Source: Leifsonia sp. 466MF (lineage in GTDB: Bacteria; Actinomycetota; Actinomycetes; Actinomycetales; Microbacteriaceae). Taken from it: a stretch of 64,000 nt of DNA. A model generated the notes under the pieces. That model was not told the origin of the DNA and ran no database searches. It saw nothing but the letters and a program-made list of their open reading frames with translations. The position numbers and the translations under genes are program-made. Below, piece by piece: positions 9,098-58,582 of the stretch (position 1 is the stretch's first letter; each line of letters starts with the position of its first letter). Location: contig NZ_LT629696.1 of assembly GCF_900100265.1 (NCBI RefSeq), positions 3,844,001-3,908,000 on the forward strand, read 5' to 3'.

Positions 9098-11998
9098 ATG
9101 AGCGACGAGGCGCGGCCCCATGACTGGCCCCATCATGTGCTCGAGTTGCGCATCCACGGCATCAAGAACACCCCGCCGACGGAGATGCTCGGGCGCGAGC
9201 AGAGCGAGCTGCGGCAGACGCAGGGCGACGAGAACGGCGGGTTCTGGTGGGCGCCGAAGCAGGATGAGCCCGACCGCGATCCCGACGACGCGCCCGGCAC
9301 GATCGACCCGGCCGTTCCGCCGCCCGACGTGCGCACCGAGGCGTACTCGTGGGGCCGGCTGGCCCGGTACGGCTCCGGCCCGCTGCTGTTCATCGGGCAG
9401 CTCTTCGTCCAGCTCGCCTGGCTGCTGCTGGCCCCGTTCGGCCTGGCGAACTCGGCGTACTGGACCCGGCGCATCCCGACCCAGCGGGCGGGCGGCGAGT
9501 GGGATGCCGGGGTCGGCGGCGCGTCCCTCCGCATCTTCGCGCTCGGACTGACCCTGCTCTACGTCTGCGCCCTCGGCTCCGTGAGCCTCGACCTGGGCGT
9601 GCAGTGTGTGACGGGCACGGCGTGCACCGCGCTTCCGGAGGCGGTCACCGGCTTCTTCGCGAACGCGCCGCTGAGCTGGCGCGGGCCGCAGCTGTCGCTG
9701 CTCTCGCTCGTGCCGATCGCGGGCGTCCTACTCCTTTTCCTCGTGTCGCGCCGAGCGCGGGCGCGCTACGAAGCGGCGATCTTCGACGCGGCCGACCGCA
9801 TGGGCGGGCGCGGTGTCCGGCGCAACGGCCGTCTGCGTCCGCTCGCGTCGGAGGGCTTCTGGCGCACGGCGCGCGTCGGCTCCCCGACCGAGCGTCTGCA
9901 CCTGGCGGCCGCCTTCCTGCTCGTCGCCCTGCTGCTCGCCTGGGACCGCATGTTCGCCGGCGCTGCCGCGTGCGTGAAGCTGCAGACCTTCGTGTCGGGC
10001 GAGTGCCTCAGTGCCGCGTTCGGATCGCGGGACGTGCTCGCCCTCAGCGGCGGGATCATCGCGGCGGCAGGGCTGACGGTCACCATCATCCTGGTCGGGG
10101 TGTTCGCCGAGACGACGAGCACGGGGGATGCCGGCGACACCTCGGTCGACGAGTTCCTGCGCGACCGCCTCCGCCGCACCGGAACGGTCACAGCCTGGGT
10201 GCTGGTGGTGTCCATCCTCGTCTACCTCTACGTCGGCGCAACCCTGTGGTTCGGCGGCGAGTATGCGGCGCCGCCGTCGGGGGCGTTCCTCGGGCTCGCG
10301 ACCGCGCCATCCATCATCCTCGGCGTACTGCTCGCCATCTGCATCTCGGCGCTGGGATGGCGGCGCGGGGTTCCGCACTGGCGGTCGATCGCCCTGATGA
10401 CCGGCGCAGGGCTGACCTTCCTCGCCGGAGTCGCGCAGAATCCGCCGACGCAGAACGCCGCGCCGGGTCCGCTTCGTTTGCCCCTGTTCGCCATCGCGGC
10501 CGTGCTGACCCTCGCGCAGCTGATCCTCGTCTGGCGGTGGCCGTACTTCCCGAGCGGCCGCCGGGCCGGCCCGCCGGAGCGATTCCGGGCCGAAGGCTGG
10601 GCGGGCATGGGTCCGGGCGTCGTCATGCTGTGGTCGCTGGGCGCCGCGATGATCCTCTCCACCCTGCTCGTGCTCGGGGTGCAGGGCTGGCTGGTCAGCG
10701 GGTCGCCGCCGTGCGGCTGTGCGACCCCGCCGCACGCGGTGCTGAGGCCGCCGATCGTCTACCACAACTTCGGCGACGTGCTCCCGTTCATCGCCATCGC
10801 GCTCGCCCTCGTCGGGATCGGCGTCGCCGCCGCGGTCCTGCGCTGGGTTCCGCTGCTGACGACGCCCCGCACGCGTGACGGCCGCCGGCCGCTGCTGGAG
10901 CAGGTGGATGCGTACCGCGACGGCCGCATCGCCGCGAGCACGACGGCCGACCGCCTGGCGCTGAAGATCCTGCGTGCACGGCGACTAGCCGCGCTGGTGC
11001 ACCGGGGCGAGCCCATTCTCGGAATCCTCGCCGCGCTGCTCGCCGTCGGCTTCGTCGTAGCGCTCGCCGTCTCGTACTCGGTCGTCTTCCGCTGGATCGA
11101 CGCGCTCGTCGGTCCGGCTCTCGCGGTCATCGCCGCCGCCATCCTCGCCGTGGTGGTGGAGAACGCGTTGACCGCCAAGGAACGGCCGATCAGCATCATG
11201 TGGGACCTCATGTGCTTCCTCCCGCGGGCGGGACATCCGTTCGGTCCGCCTTGCTACGCGGAGCGCGTCGTCCCCGAGCTGCGCGACCGTGTCGCCGACT
11301 GGCTGACGCACGACCGGGAGCCGCCGGAAGGGCTCACGCTGGCCGAACGACTCCGCTGGCGAGACGAGCAGGAGGAGGCCGCGCTCGGCGAGAAGCGCCC
11401 GTTCAGCGTGGTCCTGTCGGCCCACAGCCTGGGCGCCGTGCTGGCTGTCTCGACGCTGTTCACCCTGCGGCCGGACGACGCCGACCGGCTGCGCAACGTC
11501 GCGCTGTTGACCTACGGCTCGCAGCTGCGCGTCTACTTCGGGCGGTTCTTCCCCGAACTATTCGGGCCGGATGCCCTCGGTACCCTCGGCTCGCGGCGTC
11601 CGCTCCTCGGCAAGGCCGACCCGTGGTTCACCCAGGTGGAGCGCGATCAGGACGGCGACCCGGTCGTCATCGGCGCGTCCGGCGCATCCGACCCGTCGCT
11701 CGTGCAGCTGCTGACACAGGAGGACGGCTCGGTCGCCTGGATCAACCTGTGGCGCCGGACGGACTACCTCGGCTTCCCGGTCAACAGCTACCGCCTCGAA
11801 GACCGCCGCCCGGACGACATCGACCGGGGAGCCGACGAGTTCGGTCCGCCGCGCTACCTCGTGAAGGTCGCGACGCATCCCGACTACCAATCGGCGCCGC
11901 AGTACCGCGTGGCGCTCCTCGACCTCATCGCCCGCCTCGACGCTCCCGCCCCGCCCGCCCCGCCCGCCTCACCCGGCTCCCCATCCAACAGCTCCTGA
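9098..11998 (+). CDS. Large integral membrane protein with serine-hydrolase motif
   Basis: A 966-residue protein. The N-terminus has LELRIHGIKNTPPTEMLG, the same opening (H-G-[VI]-x-x-T-P-P) as a family of large actinobacterial membrane proteins. About ten hydrophobic segments follow between residues 90 and 700. The C-terminal part carries SAHSLGAVLA near residue 770, a Ser-based nucleophile-elbow motif of alpha/beta hydrolases, and a polar tail rich in Pro/Ala. The substrate is unknown. The start follows a GGAGGG Shine-Dalgarno sequence. The final codons and the TGA stop are supplied by a palindromic repeat (11985-12049), so the original gene may have ended differently. Confidence 0.8.
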   Translation: MSDEARPHDWPHHVLELRIHGIKNTPPTEMLGREQSELRQTQGDENGGFWWAPKQDEPDRDPDDAPGTIDPAVPPPDVRTEAYSWGRLARYGSGPLLFIGQLFVQLAWLLLAPFGLANSAYWTRRIPTQRAGGEWDAGVGGASLRIFALGLTLLYVCALGSVSLDLGVQCVTGTACTALPEAVTGFFANAPLSWRGPQLSLLSLVPIAGVLLLFLVSRRARARYEAAIFDAADRMGGRGVRRNGRLRPLASEGFWRTARVGSPTERLHLAAAFLLVALLLAWDRMFAGAAACVKLQTFVSGECLSAAFGSRDVLALSGGIIAAAGLTVTIILVGVFAETTSTGDAGDTSVDEFLRDRLRRTGTVTAWVLVVSILVYLYVGATLWFGGEYAAPPSGAFLGLATAPSIILGVLLAICISALGWRRGVPHWRSIALMTGAGLTFLAGVAQNPPTQNAAPGPLRLPLFAIAAVLTLAQLILVWRWPYFPSGRRAGPPERFRAEGWAGMGPGVVMLWSLGAAMILSTLLVLGVQGWLVSGSPPCGCATPPHAVLRPPIVYHNFGDVLPFIAIALALVGIGVAAAVLRWVPLLTTPRTRDGRRPLLEQVDAYRDGRIAASTTADRLALKILRARRLAALVHRGEPILGILAALLAVGFVVALAVSYSVVFRWIDALVGPALAVIAAAILAVVVENALTAKERPISIMWDLMCFLPRAGHPFGPPCYAERVVPELRDRVADWLTHDREPPEGLTLAERLRWRDEQEEAALGEKRPFSVVLSAHSLGAVLAVSTLFTLRPDDADRLRNVALLTYGSQLRVYFGRFFPELFGPDALGTLGSRRPLLGKADPWFTQVERDQDGDPVVIGASGASDPSLVQLLTQEDGSVAWINLWRRTDYLGFPVNSYRLEDRRPDDIDRGADEFGPPRYLVKVATHPDYQSAPQYRVALLDLIARLDAPAPPAPPASPGSPSNSS

Positions 11999-12049
11999 GT
12001 TTTTCGCCCTTTTCGACCGCGAAACGCGCAAAAACTCCGCAGCTGTTGG
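11985..12049. repeat. Palindromic repeat, family I, across a stop codon
   Basis: Arms 11985-12006 and 12027-12049 share CCAACAGCT...GAGTTTTT and its complement. It begins inside the last codons of the membrane hydrolase gene and provides its TGA. The codon phase (aac agc tcc tga gtt ttt) is the same as in the copy at 35419, where GGA stands in place of TGA. Confidence 0.8.
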
Positions 12050-12146
12050 CGAGGGGGGCGCGGGCGCGGGGATGCACGGTACGCCGGGAGGCGGGCGCGG
12101 GTAAGCCCCCTTGCGGGCGGCGGGGGTGCGGCGTTTCGTGGGGCCT

Positions 12147-22378: not shown

Positions 22379-22437
22379 CGAGATTTGCGCCAAATCGTCG
22401 TTATGGACGCGCCATAACCGAGATTTGGCGCAAATCG
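22379..22437. repeat. Palindromic repeat, family III, copy 1
   Basis: Arms 22379-22406 and 22412-22437 pair over about 26 bases with few mismatches; each arm also contains the small palindrome GATTTGCGCCAAATC. It lies between two convergent genes and may act as a terminator. It aligns without gaps over about 62 bases with the copy at 24113. Confidence 0.8.
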
Positions 22438-24112: not shown

Positions 24113-24176
24113 CGCGAGATTCGTGCCGAATGTGCGTTATCGACTCGCCATTCCGCACATTCGGCACGAATCTGCG
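24113..24176. repeat. Palindromic repeat, family III, copy 2
   Basis: Arms 24113-24136 and 24154-24176 pair over 23 bases with one or two mismatches around a 17-base loop. It lies 6 bases after the stop of the leftward GH84-like gene and 52 bases upstream of the Stealth start. Relative to copy 1, several changes occur in both arms so that pairing is kept. Confidence 0.8.
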
Positions 24177-34198: not shown

Positions 34199-35094
34199 CC
34201 GACACCACCTCCCGCCCGGCGCTCGACCTCGACGCCATCGCCCGCCCCAGCGGCGGCCTCGCGATGGTCGCGATGGATCAGCGCGAGAGCCTCCGCCACA
34301 TGTTCGATCTGGCGGGTGCCGGACGCCCGGCGGACGACGTGCTCATCCGGTTCAAGCTCGACGTCGCCGAGGCGCTCGGCCCGCTCGCATCCGGCTTCCT
34401 GATCGACCGGCACTACGGGTTCGAGGCCGTGCGCGACGCGCTCCCCGCTGAAACGGGCCTCATCCTCGCCGCCGACGCCCTCACGCAGGAGGACGGCGGT
34501 CCGGTCGAGGAGACCGCACTCGACGAGGTCGTCCTCGACCAGACCGATCTGGCCGGCGTCTCGGCGCTGAAGCTGCTCGTGATCTGGCGGCGCGACGCCA
34601 AGCGCGAGCAGCGCGTCCGGCTGGTCGAGCGGTTCGTCGCCGAGTGCCGCACGCGTGGCGTGCTCTCCGTGCTGGAGCCGGTCGTCCGGGCCACCCCCGA
34701 GGAGCTCGACGCCGGCACCTGGGATCTGGATGTCGCCATCCGCGAGGCGGCGGAGGAGCTGTCGCCGCTCGGCCAGAGCCTCTACAAGGTGCAGGTGCCG
34801 ATGTCGGGCACCGGTGATGAAGCAGCGCAGCGGGAGGCGAGCGAGAAGCTCAACGCCTCGATCACCGGGCCGTGGGTCGTGCTCTCGCAGGGCGTCGACC
34901 GGCCGGCGTTCCTGCCCGCGGTCGAGGCGGCGTGCCGGGCCGGTGCGAGCGGCTTCCTCGCCGGACGTGCCCTGTGGAGCGACGTCGTCGGTCGCGACGA
35001 CGTGCCGTCGGCTCTGCGCGAGCTGTCGGTTCCGCGTCTCGAAGCGCTCATCGAGGTCGTCGACCGCGAGGCCCGGCCGTGGCGGGAGGCATGA
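34195..35094 (+). CDS. Class I aldolase of the LacD/YihT type
   Basis: A 299-residue class I aldolase. The opening IARPSGGLAMVAMDQRESLR and the blocks ALKLLVIWRRDAKRE, VLSVLEPVVRATPEE, LYKVQVPMSG and WVVLSQGVDR closely resemble sulfofructosephosphate aldolase YihT and tagatose-bisphosphate aldolase LacD. The Schiff-base Lys is expected in SLYKVQVP. It would split a phosphorylated ketose made by the FGGY kinase. A sulfosugar role is not supported by neighbours: no YihV-type kinase or sulfolactaldehyde enzyme is visible. Coupled on both sides by ATGA overlaps. Confidence 0.88.
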   Translation: MTDTTSRPALDLDAIARPSGGLAMVAMDQRESLRHMFDLAGAGRPADDVLIRFKLDVAEALGPLASGFLIDRHYGFEAVRDALPAETGLILAADALTQEDGGPVEETALDEVVLDQTDLAGVSALKLLVIWRRDAKREQRVRLVERFVAECRTRGVLSVLEPVVRATPEELDAGTWDLDVAIREAAEELSPLGQSLYKVQVPMSGTGDEAAQREASEKLNASITGPWVVLSQGVDRPAFLPAVEAACRAGASGFLAGRALWSDVVGRDDVPSALRELSVPRLEALIEVVDREARPWREA

Positions 35095-35933
35095 TGATCG
35101 CGGGGCTGCTGCACACTGTCCCGGCGCTCGCGCCGACGTTCGACGCGCTCGTCGCCGGTGCCGTTCCCGGTGCCTCGCGTGAGCATGTCGTCGACGCGTG
35201 GATGCTCGAGACGGCCATCGCCGAGGGCGTCACCCCCGCCGTGCGCGAGCGCGTCGCCGGGCACCTGCGTCACCTCGCGGACTCGGGCGCGGACGCCGTG
35301 CTCGTGACCTGCTCGTCGATCGGCGAGGCCGCGGAGGAGGCGGCTGCTGCGCTCCGCATCCCCGTCATCCGCGTCGACGCCGCCATGGCCGTCGAGTCCG
35401 TCCGTCTCGCCGCCCACGCCAACAGCTCCGGAGTTTTTCGGCCTGACACGCCGTCCGAGGGCGGAAAAACTCAGGAGCTGTCGGCTGGGGGGATCGCGGT
35501 GCTCGCGACGAACACCGCGACACTCGGGCCGACCACCCGGCTGATCGAGCGGGAGGCGGCGGCGCGCGGCGTCGCGGTCGACGTCACCGCGACGGTCGTC
35601 GAGGGCGCTGCGGCCGCACGGGCCGCCGGCGACCAGGCGACCCACGACCGGCTCATCGCCGACGAGGTGCGCCGGCTCGCGGGGAGCGGAACGGCCTCCG
35701 TCCTCGTCCTCGCCCAGGCCTCCATGGCCCCGGCCGCCGAATCGGCCGGCGTCGACCTCCCCGTGCTCACCTCCCCGGCCGGCGGCGTCGCCGGCCTGCG
35801 GGAGGCCCTGACCCCGTCGGACCCGGGAACGCCGGACGCCAGCGCGAACCGGCCGGCGCCTCCCGGGTCCGGCGGTACCTCCGCCGCGGCGAGCCCGGCG
35901 GACGGGACCCCGGCGAACGGAGCCCGCGCATGA
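35091..35933 (+). CDS. Asp/Glu racemase-family protein with inserted palindrome peptide
   Basis: A 280-residue member of the aspartate/glutamate racemase superfamily. The first catalytic Cys is in VLVTCSSIGEA. The position of the second is LVLAQASMAPAA with Ala in place of Cys, as in some non-racemase members. About residues 110-132 are encoded by a palindromic repeat (35419-35484) that interrupts the boundary before strand GIAVLATNTATL. A Pro/Gly/Ser/Ala-rich tail of about 40 residues ends the protein. The role in the operon is unknown; it may act on a sugar-acid or hydantoin-like intermediate. ATG 35091 overlaps the aldolase stop. Confidence 0.85.
   Translation: MMIAGLLHTVPALAPTFDALVAGAVPGASREHVVDAWMLETAIAEGVTPAVRERVAGHLRHLADSGADAVLVTCSSIGEAAEEAAAALRIPVIRVDAAMAVESVRLAAHANSSGVFRPDTPSEGGKTQELSAGGIAVLATNTATLGPTTRLIEREAAARGVAVDVTATVVEGAAAARAAGDQATHDRLIADEVRRLAGSGTASVLVLAQASMAPAAESAGVDLPVLTSPAGGVAGLREALTPSDPGTPDASANRPAPPGSGGTSAAASPADGTPANGARA
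35419..35484. repeat. Palindromic repeat, family I, in-frame inside a gene
   Basis: Arms 35419-35443 and 35460-35484 (25 bases, about four mismatches) around a 16-base loop. The element is 66 bases, exactly 22 codons, and is read as part of the racemase-like protein. The encoded core SGVFRPDTPSEGGKTQ aligns with SGLSPADTPRVGGETP from the copy at 55861, in the same codon phase. Confidence 0.88.
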
Positions 35934-44089: not shown

Positions 44090-44124
44090 CCTCGCGGGGC
44101 GTTCCGTCTCTCGCCCCTCTCCGG

Positions 44125-44196
44125 CCCCCGTCGAGTACGCACAAATTGCACGCCCGCGGTGCTCGGGGCGTGCAATTTGTGCGTACTCGACGGGGG
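44125..44196. repeat. Perfect 31-base inverted repeat between convergent genes
   Basis: Arms 44125-44155 and 44166-44196 are exact complements around a 10-base loop. It lies between convergent genes and probably stops transcription from both sides, but the stem is much longer than a normal terminator. The outer part starts with CGAG like the family II and III repeats. Confidence 0.88.
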
Positions 44197-44219
44197 GCGG
44201 GGATTGGGAGGGGTGCGGA

Positions 44220-55835: not shown

Positions 55836-58582
55836 CCACCCCCGAGCAGGCAGCCGTCGATTCCGGACTTTCTCCGGCCGACACGCCGCGTGTGGGCGGA
55901 GAAACTCCGGAACAGATCGCGGTGGATGCGGCGCAGGAGCCGCGCGAGAGCGCATCCGGGAACGAGGTCGCCGGCGAGACGGGCGCCCCCGACGCGAACG
56001 GCAAAGCCCCCGTCGCGAACGCGCCCGCCGGCACCCAGCCGCGCGACCTCCCGCCAGCGAAGCGCCCGACGGCGACCCCGCAGCGCACCCTCCACATGAT
56101 CGGCAACGCGCACCTCGACCCGGTGTGGCTGTGGCCGTGGCAGGAGGGCTACCAGGAGGCCCGCGCGACCTTCTGGTCGGCCATCCACCGCATGGAGGAG
56201 TACCCCGATTTCGTCTTCACCTGCGACCAGATCGTGCTGCTCAGCTGGGTGGAGGAGTCCGACCCTGAGCTGTTCGAGCAGATCAAGCGCCGTGTCGCCG
56301 AGGGCCGCTGGGTCAACGTCGGCGGCTGGTGGGTCGAGCCGGACAACAACATGCCGATGGGCGAGAGCTTCGTGCGCCAGGGTCTGTACGGCCAGCGCTA
56401 CCTCGAGTCGCGCTTCGGGAAGCCGTCGACCGTCGGGATGAATGTGGACCCGTTCGGTCACAACGCGATGCTCCCGCAGATCCTGCGCGGCCAGGGGATG
56501 GACTCGTATACGTTCCTGCGGCCCGGCCCGCACGAGTCCGACCTGGCTCCGAGCCTGTTCTGGTGGGAGGCGCCCGACGGCTCGCGGGTGCTGGCCTACC
56601 GCATCCCGTTCGAGTACTGCAGCCCGCCCGGCTCGGTCGACGGCCAGACCGAGAAGGCGCTCGCCTCGCTCGACCGCACCGTCGGCTTCGGCGAGAACGC
56701 GACCGCGATGGTGTTCTACGGCGTGGGCAACCACGGCGGCGGCCCGACCATCGCGAACATCGAGTCGATCCACCGCTACGACCGCATGGGCTCTTTCGGA
56801 AGGATGACGATGTCGTCACCGCGCACGTACTTCGACGAGGTGCTCGGCCGGGGCGAGGCGTTCCTCGACACCCTCCCGGTGCGCCGCGACGACCTGCAGC
56901 ACCATGCGCCCGGCTGTTATTCGGCGCACTCGGGCATCAAGGCGTGGCAGCGTCGCGCGCAGTTCGCCGTGCTGAACGCCGAGCGCTGGGCGGCGGTGGT
57001 CGCCGCGACCGACGGCGTCGACTACCCGCGCGAGCAGCTGGAGACCGCCTGGAAGCAGGTGCTGTTCAACCAGTTCCACGACATCCTGCCCGGTTCGGCG
57101 ATCGAGCCGTCGTACGACGACGCACGCGACCAGCTCGGCGAGGCCGTCGCGATCTCGAAGCGCATCATCACGCGGGCGCACAACGTCCTCGCCCGCCAGG
57201 TGCAGGTCGACCGGGAGGACGGCACGCAGCCGGTCCTGGTCTTCAACCCGCACCCCTGGGCGGTGTCGGTGGATGTGGACTTCCAGTACGGCGCGCAGCG
57301 CGCCGGCGTGCACGTGGTCGACGAGAACGGCGAGCCCGTCGTCTTCCAGAACTCGCAGTCGACCGCGACGACGGACGATGTCTCGCGCGGCGCCGTGGTG
57401 TTCCGCGCCGACGTCCCGGCTCTCGGCTACCGCCTCTACCGCCTGCGTCCCGGCGCCGGCCCGGGTGCGGCATCCAACGCCCTGACCGTGACCGCCGACA
57501 CCCTCGAGAACGAGCACGTCCGCATCCGCATCGATCAGGAGACCGGCTGGATCTCGTCCTACCTGGTCAAGGCGACCGGCGTGGATGTGATGGCCGGCGT
57601 CGACGGCGCCAAGCACACCCAGATCAACGACGACCCGACCGATACGTGGGGCCACCGGGTCATCTCGTACGCCTGGCCGGGCGCGACGATGGGGCTGAAG
57701 CGCATCGTGGTCCGCGAGACCGGCCCGCTGCGGTCTCGCGTCCGGGTCGAGCGGGCGTGGGGCGCATCCACTCTGGTGGAGGAGCTCATCCTCGACCACG
57801 ATTCGCCTGTGCTGCGGGTCAACGTGACGCTCGACTGGCGCGAACAGGCGCACCTGCTGAAGCTGCGCTTCCCGACCGTGCTCGATGACCCGACGGCGAC
57901 GTACGAGATCCCGTTCGGTCACCTGGAGCGCCCGGTCGACGGCGCCGAGGAGCCCGCGCAGTCGTGGGTGGATCTGACCGGCACGATCGACGGCGCCGCC
58001 GCCGGTCTCACGGTGATCACGACCAACAAGCACGCCTACGATGTGTCGCCGGGAACCGCCGACGACGGCGAGCAGCCGAGTATCGGCGTGACCGCCGTCC
58101 GCAGCCCGGTCTACTCGTGGCACGACCCGCGCTTGCTCGACCCGGAGGGCATCTACTCCTTCCAGGATCAGGGCGTCCAGCGGTTCAGCTACGAGCTGGT
58201 GCCCCACGCGGGCGATTGGCGTGAGGCCGACCCGATCCGTCGCGCGCTCGTGCTCGGCAACCCGGTGCGGGCGATGCAGGAGTCGTTCCACGACGGCGTG
58301 CTGCCTCCCGTGAACTCGTTCGCGAGCGACGGCGGCGATACCGTCATGGTGACCGCGCTGAAGGGCACCGAGGACGAGACGGATGCCCCCGGCGGCGCGG
58401 ACGTGGTCGTGCGGGCCGTCGAGACACGCGGAGAGGGCGGACGCTCGCGCATCGAGCTCCCGCTGCTCGGGCGCACCATCGAGGAGGACTTCGGCCCGTC
58501 GCAGCTGCGCACCTTCGTGGTGCCGGCCGACCCGGCCCAGCCGGTCCGCGAGGTCGACCTGATCGAGCGCCCGCTGCCGTGA
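55832..58582 (+). CDS. GH38 alpha-mannosidase with repeat-bearing N-terminal extension
   Basis: A 916-residue GH38 alpha-mannosidase. The catalytic domain opens with HMIGNAHLDPVWLWPWQEGY (zinc ligands His and Asp), the nucleophile is D206 in GMNVDPFGHN, and the later FNQFHDILPGSAI block holds another zinc His. C-terminal beta domains follow. No signal peptide. The first 85 residues are an extension rich in Ala/Pro/Glu; residues 11-27 are encoded by a palindromic repeat (55861-55912). GTG 55832 overlaps the SIS stop; a start near residue 89 would leave out the extension but has less support. It cleaves alpha-mannosides of glycans together with the next gene. Confidence 0.92.
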   Translation: MTTPEQAAVDSGLSPADTPRVGGETPEQIAVDAAQEPRESASGNEVAGETGAPDANGKAPVANAPAGTQPRDLPPAKRPTATPQRTLHMIGNAHLDPVWLWPWQEGYQEARATFWSAIHRMEEYPDFVFTCDQIVLLSWVEESDPELFEQIKRRVAEGRWVNVGGWWVEPDNNMPMGESFVRQGLYGQRYLESRFGKPSTVGMNVDPFGHNAMLPQILRGQGMDSYTFLRPGPHESDLAPSLFWWEAPDGSRVLAYRIPFEYCSPPGSVDGQTEKALASLDRTVGFGENATAMVFYGVGNHGGGPTIANIESIHRYDRMGSFGRMTMSSPRTYFDEVLGRGEAFLDTLPVRRDDLQHHAPGCYSAHSGIKAWQRRAQFAVLNAERWAAVVAATDGVDYPREQLETAWKQVLFNQFHDILPGSAIEPSYDDARDQLGEAVAISKRIITRAHNVLARQVQVDREDGTQPVLVFNPHPWAVSVDVDFQYGAQRAGVHVVDENGEPVVFQNSQSTATTDDVSRGAVVFRADVPALGYRLYRLRPGAGPGAASNALTVTADTLENEHVRIRIDQETGWISSYLVKATGVDVMAGVDGAKHTQINDDPTDTWGHRVISYAWPGATMGLKRIVVRETGPLRSRVRVERAWGASTLVEELILDHDSPVLRVNVTLDWREQAHLLKLRFPTVLDDPTATYEIPFGHLERPVDGAEEPAQSWVDLTGTIDGAAAGLTVITTNKHAYDVSPGTADDGEQPSIGVTAVRSPVYSWHDPRLLDPEGIYSFQDQGVQRFSYELVPHAGDWREADPIRRALVLGNPVRAMQESFHDGVLPPVNSFASDGGDTVMVTALKGTEDETDAPGGADVVVRAVETRGEGGRSRIELPLLGRTIEEDFGPSQLRTFVVPADPAQPVREVDLIERPLP
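55861..55912. repeat. Palindromic repeat, family I, in-frame inside a gene
   Basis: Arms 55861-55879 and 55895-55912 (TTCCGGA, TTTCTCCG and complements) with a 15-base loop. It lies within the N-terminal extension of the GH38 gene and keeps the frame. The encoded SGLSPADTPRVGGETP matches the peptide of the copy at 35419 in the same phase; 8 of 17 codons are identical. Confidence 0.85.

Follow-up and report, generated by a model that had tools for sequence, protein, structure and literature searches.

A family of short palindromic repeats at gene 3' ends in Leifsonia, with rare in-frame copies in predicted coding sequence

The window is a stretch of 64,000 nt from Leifsonia sp. 466MF, here genome G000. 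The features discussed below are the following.

35145..35933, + strand: Asp/Glu racemase-family gene (PF01177) carrying an insert; an ATG start is assumed, and our home-made gene finder puts the start at 35079 instead of 35145
35414..35489, + strand: family I element in the racemase-like gene, with the boundaries of its covariance-model match (G000:C1:3879414-3879489 in the genome); the 66 nt first described are 35419-35484
11980..12054, + strand: family I copy at the 3' end of the predicted gene 9137-11998, which uses the element's TGA (11996-11998) as its stop codon
55832..58582, + strand: GH38 alpha-mannosidase gene with an N-terminal copy
55849..55924, + strand: diverged family I copy, in frame near the GH38 N-terminus (48.7 bits)

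Elsewhere in the window, the gene finder calls only one ORF of 47 aa between 45088 and 54257, where a ribosomal RNA operon is likely.

The racemase-like gene had drawn attention because a 66-base palindrome appeared to lie in frame inside it, and the sequence, a repeat finder and a folding test all bear this out. Positions 35419-35484 form an imperfect palindrome of 66 bases. The repeat finder places the arms at 35413-35443 and 35460-35490 with 84% complementarity. With flanks of 10 nt, the strand has a predicted folding energy of -56 kcal/mol (z -6.6), which none of 200 shuffles equalled. A chance palindrome is contradicted by this comparison, by the presence of the arms in many copies and by a Markov-2 control of a 400-kb stretch of the genome, in which no palindrome scored 18 or more vs 21 in the real stretch (one control). 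An Rfam scan of positions 35300-35600 gave three matches, all far below the gathering scores, and no known RNA family. A viral origin was rejected, as the exact two-arm pattern had no matches in viral contigs.

The element sits in an open frame, 5 nt beyond the end of the Pfam Asp_Glu_race match. The original prediction spoke of 22 residues added at a domain boundary; an in-frame insert just past the domain is indeed present, but its size is not exactly 22. The stretch from VDA to LGPT measures 54-59 residues in four occupied genomes and 30-42 in five unoccupied ones, so the edges of the insert are not exact. The AlphaFold (AF2) model shows the insert as a loop, predicted with reduced confidence, that lies between helix 79-94 and strand 115-121. 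Racemase orthologues without the insert exist. Inspection by eye of the best 120 of 1385 homologues found a recognisable element peptide in 18, none in about 101 and one ambiguous case. Eleven of the 18 carry the family I peptide, and in the other seven the position is taken by related peptides of different arm types; a stricter script pattern recovers eight of the eleven and the same seven others. At the DNA level, family I arms are present at this site in genomes G013 and G020, G001 has different arms around the same centre GACACGCCG in the same frame, and the element is absent from five further genomes. Residues without the palindrome in unrelated genera were not seen in the material examined, nor was a lack of further copies. 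It should be noted that the racemase-like family keeps a TCSS cysteine motif, and that its second motif reads AQASM, free of cysteine, in 40 of 40 aligned sequences, where we presume a second catalytic cysteine would be expected.

The racemase element is one copy of a Leifsonia short palindromic repeat family, which we call family I. In brief, two inverted arms of about 25 nt surround a spacer of 25-26 nt (25 in 33 copies, 26 in 14), giving a total of about 75 nt. A 12-base arm word occurs 89 times in the 4.14-Mb genome at up to one mismatch; the reversed control word occurs once. All 89 matches are explained by 47 palindromes, whose 94 arms include five with two mismatches. A covariance model built from the 47 palindromes found 49 copies in the genome (98 rows, both strands), adding the GH38 copy and one at 1597715, and thereby supported the proposal of a dispersed family. 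It also supported the proposed kinship of the racemase element with the GH38 copy, which matched at 48.7 bits from outside the training set, and with the copy at the gene end at 11998, which matched at 61.6 bits and belongs to that set. The copies are not evenly spread, with 33 of 47 lying within C1:820000-2450000 (0.82-2.45 Mb), about 39% of the chromosome. No solitary arm was found in the genome at up to one mismatch, all 89 arm matches being paired, and thus no longer element bearing these arms. A parent transposon with the same terminal repeats, as expected for a MITE, was likewise not found in the genome at this stringency, at which more diverged ends may escape. A target site duplication is not obvious at the pyrF junction, and divergence obscures the picture at the other vacant sites compared.

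Family I copies usually lie shortly after a stop codon, and most often between convergent genes. Gene context was taken from our codon-score gene finder for 47 copies. Of these, 28 are convergent, four are convergent and overlap a gene end, 12 are tandem, one is tandem and overlapping, and two lie inside ORFs. Thus 32 of 47 copies lie between convergent genes and none between divergent genes; convergent pairs make up 53 of 376 gene pairs (14%) in the 400-kb stretch. The cores of the 45 non-internal copies start -7 to 36 nt from the stop codon, and 45 of the 47 copies surveyed are counted at gene 3' ends, the N-terminal pyrF copy among them. In all five copies that overlap a gene end, the element's own TGA is the stop codon of the gene, in the same phase.

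Palindromes at gene ends are not restricted to family I. We surveyed spacers of 40-300 nt for palindromes scoring at least 12, with one shuffle of each spacer as control. In the 400-kb stretch of G000, such a palindrome was present in 24 of the 29 convergent spacers, in 20 of the 127 tandem ones and in 1 of the 43 divergent ones, and in none of the shuffles. The corresponding counts were 22 of 26, 10 of 92 and 1 of 40 in G013 and 17 of 22, 20 of 117 and 1 of 44 in G001. By eye, 21 of the 24 convergent palindromes of G000 fall into about six repeat families, including family I, and three resemble ordinary single hairpins. In the window, gene-end palindromes of other families lie at 44118-44203 (CGTCGAGT..), 22382-22436 (GATTTGCGCCAAATC..) and 24117-24173 (ATTCGTGCCGAAT..); these recur elsewhere in the genome.

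Four of the 49 copies are in-frame inserts in predicted coding sequence, all in one orientation and phase: those in the racemase-like gene and in priA, and those at the N-termini of pyrF and the GH38 gene. Each adds a short polar segment to the predicted protein, within a linker in the racemase and PriA and at the N-terminus in PyrF and GH38. The shared phase is closed by a TGA in the usual arm CTCCTGAG and is open in CCGGA variants, which all four carry. This agrees with the common orientation and codon phase first noticed for the racemase and GH38 copies and with the gene at 11998 ending on the element's TGA. These host genes are unrelated, and unoccupied orthologues were found for racemase, priA and pyrF, and also for GH38. 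For a copy at 1597727, a C-terminal frame on the reverse strand is possible, again in the phase of the coding copies.

The insert in priA (PF17764) is present in 5 of 25 readable genomes of the genus, three more being unreadable by our script, and by pattern its peptide is found in 6 of 120 listed PriA homologues. In nine of ten species pairs, which are not independent of each other, this peptide shows lower conservation than the remainder of PriA, and between G000 and G014 it is fully conserved; such weak conservation does not demonstrate selection for the peptide. In the same PriA linker, genomes G005, G009 and G041 (L230, L229, L228) carry a different, repeated SGDQMSP-like peptide, which is expanded many times in protein P0136. 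Of 28 Leifsonia genomes, 3 have the insert in pyrF (PF00215), where it is N-terminal and located at the carB-pyrF junction. The junction lacks the element in the other 25 and reads exactly ATGACG-TTCGG in G001, G020 and G005. The gene finder places the pyrF copy in a tandem intergenic spacer, but judged from the G001 junction it is coding. In the GH38 gene, the core of the copy (55861) starts about 25 nt past the predicted stop of the upstream gene. Among 21 printed homologues the insert is clear only in the gene's own cluster, P0243 having a degenerate-looking form, and a pattern scan of 120 listed homologues matched the own cluster alone.

Comparison with related genomes showed both shared and vacant sites. 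In a contiguous stretch of G013, family I occupies nine of the ten alignable G000 sites (of 12), the tenth holds another palindrome, and one G013 copy is without counterpart in G000. In a wider set 26 of 27 sites are occupied in G013, a figure biased by the fact that most loci were fetched because they hold a copy. A contiguous stretch of G001 has 6 of 11 sites occupied, two more filled by other repeats and three that are empty or nearly so. At the site orthologous to G000 1601727, the G001:C2 stretch (L273-L292) has only a short CTCCCAAGCCAGGAGGGG-like stretch at the gene end, possibly a remnant of an element. Identity between G000 and G013 is 98.2% in the arms, a value inflated by the way the copies were found, 91.4% in the outer 12 nt, 86.2% in the spacer and 94.9% in the mostly coding flanks.

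The arms differ between species in the manner of dialects, with paired changes in both arms, and more distant species have other arms. At arm position 10, T is found in all 94 arms of G000, and C or G in 26 of 28 arms of G001 and 10 of 14 of G020; in this comparison, the G013 and G014 sets contain a few spurious arms. Covariation was assessed on 26 elements from eight genomes, picked with covariance model R1 and therefore leaning to paired arms; sequences within a dialect are related, so that individual cells cannot be counted as independent. Across dialects, pairing holds for 92.6% of cells vs 75.8% when shuffled, 117 cells show two-sided change vs 41, and the covariation score is 0.435 vs 0.135, falling to at most 0.10 when slid; for each of these measures, none of 500 shuffles was as high. 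Pairs with two-sided change (15 of 26 vs 12.8 shuffled; 23 of 500 shuffles as high) are hardly more numerous than in the shuffles, and further pair types (28 vs 27.7; 268 of 500 shuffles as high) are not in excess. G-U pairs account for 11 of about 625 paired cells.

Model R1 had matches in 18 of 40 genomes including the own one, all among the 25 of the same genus. With stricter filters it matched 5 of 199 family-level genomes, two of them outside the genus with one weak site each. The permissive model R2 gave 146 rows in G000 vs 98 with R1 and may take in other palindrome families, so its rows were not used as copy numbers. It had matches in 26 of 28 genomes of the genus and in 15 of 199 family-level genomes from 9 of 85 genera, strong only in the own genus and in genus g61. 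Two inspected elements of g61 share a GGCGTGTC centre. This neighbouring genus (L362, L363) has many gene-end palindromes with quite different arms and the same central GGCGTGTC motif.

Based on these sequence comparisons, we lean towards the view that family I is a REP-like family of gene-end palindromes, probably acting as a two-sided 3'-end hairpin, whose rare coding copies would be tolerated inserts. The hairpin would end transcription or protect mRNA ends, and could be used by both transcripts of a convergent pair. Such an element is consistent with the placement at gene ends, with the occupation of convergent spacers by any of several palindrome families and with the preserved two-sided symmetry. 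Copies inside genes may survive for two reasons: ribosomes trailing the polymerase would prevent the RNA from folding, and the insert leaves the frame intact at a site that tolerates it. New sites would be gained by mobility through some helper, which we infer from the differing breadth of the inserts, that in priA being wider than that in pyrF, and arms would be kept alike within a species by concerted evolution. Several observations count against this reading. TTTT follows the stem at none of 94 element ends, and a simple terminator scan gave no match at the gene-end copy 11980-12054; family I is thus not a textbook intrinsic terminator, and this candidate was rejected. Two of the covariation measures are at or near the shuffle level. 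Within the genome, covariation in the spacer was expected by eye and was not borne out, its pairing being no more complementary than letters re-dealt between copies, save at one position. Copies between tandem genes keep both arms, which a DNA-binding dyad explains equally well. Finally, G-U pairs are few for an RNA stem, yet few would also be expected in a stem that functions on both strands.

The arms may instead be half-sites for a sequence-specific DNA-binding or DNA-cutting protein that changes between lineages, such as a nucleoid factor, a nuclease or an uptake or recombination system, with gene ends as the places where they do least harm. We regard this as possible but rather doubtful. 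It would account for arms that are nearly invariant within a species around a spacer that drifts at a fixed length of 25-26, for the confinement of all 89 arm-word matches to the 94 arms of the 47 copies, for the joint shift of the dialects at position 10 (T in G000, C or G in most arms of G001 and G020) and for the scarcity of G-U pairs. However, another palindrome family takes the place of family I at some orthologous convergent sites (one in G013, one or two in G001), which suggests that any palindrome suffices. At much the same low level of confidence, we speculate that Leifsonia and at least one neighbouring genus mark gene ends with palindromes whose arms change together by species, around a stabler centre GACACGCCG, in step with a putative DNA- or RNA-binding factor that is specific to the lineage. 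Copies inside priA and the racemase-like gene would be subject to the dialect as well, so that an outside recognition system would be rewriting amino acids of housekeeping enzymes.

A selfish element of Rickettsia or MITE type, spreading by insertion, with purifying selection producing the gene-end bias and the in-gene peptide harmless or useful, appears unlikely. The breadth of occupation varies by site, as such spread would predict (priA 5 of 25 readable genomes, pyrF 3 of 28, GH38 one of 21 printed homologues plus the degenerate-looking one), and orientation and phase are common to all four coding copies. Against it stand the lack of an obvious target duplication at the pyrF junction, the absence of solitary arms at up to one mismatch, the slow turnover indicated by nine of ten alignable sites common to G013 and the weakly conserved insert peptide. 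Mobilisation as REP or REPIN sequences by a RAYT (Y1) transposase would suit a small inverted pair with a variable spacer placed at gene ends. We consider it very improbable, since PF01797 was found in none of 28 genomes of the genus vs 5 of 14 control genomes, which rules out a resident enzyme that Pfam recognises; a diverged or lost enzyme is what this scenario would call for. That the racemase palindrome is old coding sequence resembling the repeat by chance can be rejected. Its near-identical arms are common to 46 other copies, the model match has an E of about 1e-18, although this copy was in the training set, and the insert is missing from about 101 of 120 homologues.

In-frame insertions of palindromes into genes are best known from Rickettsia. 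We found no description of family I in the open-licence full-text literature, judged by title and abstract among the matches listed. As described in the sections of a review used here, Rickettsia palindromic elements (RPEs) comprise several families per genome, some copies lie in frame in unrelated genes and encode a conserved peptide, and a similar process is conceivable in other prokaryotes (PMC10969869). Going by these descriptions, the Leifsonia family is alike in being palindromic with in-frame copies in unrelated genes. RPEs are longer, about 95-150 bp vs about 75 bp, their hosts belong to a different phylum, and nearly half of those first reported were in ORFs, whereas in Leifsonia 4 of 49 copies are in-frame inserts and the rest lie at gene ends. 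The suggestion of a Rickettsia-like family creating peptide inserts therefore holds for four inserts in unrelated predicted genes, but not as the main habit of a family with 45 of 47 copies at gene 3' ends.

Family I shares with REP sequences (BIME/REPIN), as characterised in the part of the source used, a short, palindromic, multi-copy nature and a position near gene ends (PMC12306157). It differs in length, REPs being 14-40 nt in E. coli vs about 75 nt here, and in its fixed spacer of 25-26 nt, the absence of a detected Y1 transposase, the in-frame coding copies and the lineage arm dialects. DUS/USS uptake sequences also have dialects that differ between species. These have many solitary copies, while the Leifsonia arms have none and lack a poly-T tail. 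USS terminators resemble the family in that a fixed word is paired in inverted orientation at gene ends, and the motif CCTAC(N)19TAGGT of D. alkenivorans forms palindromic pairs of fixed gap and unknown function, mostly intergenic and partly between convergent genes; such pairs belong to other genomes, and the passages concerned do not mention in-frame inserts or dialects (PMC5217627). In the actinobacterium Corynebacterium diphtheriae, the small repeat Cod-2 lies within several coding genes; its authors liken it to the R. conorii elements. In the excerpts used, Cod-2 is 32 nt long, mainly genic and translated into different peptides in different frames, unlike the one phase and gene-end habitat of the Leifsonia family (PMC2267715).

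These findings extend in-frame palindromic inserts to a genus of actinobacteria, with PriA and PyrF among the host proteins, and link them to gene-end palindromes of a class present in most of the convergent spacers of the stretches surveyed. As close species differ in their arms and have many sites in common, the genus offers a direct test of repeat homogenisation and recognition.
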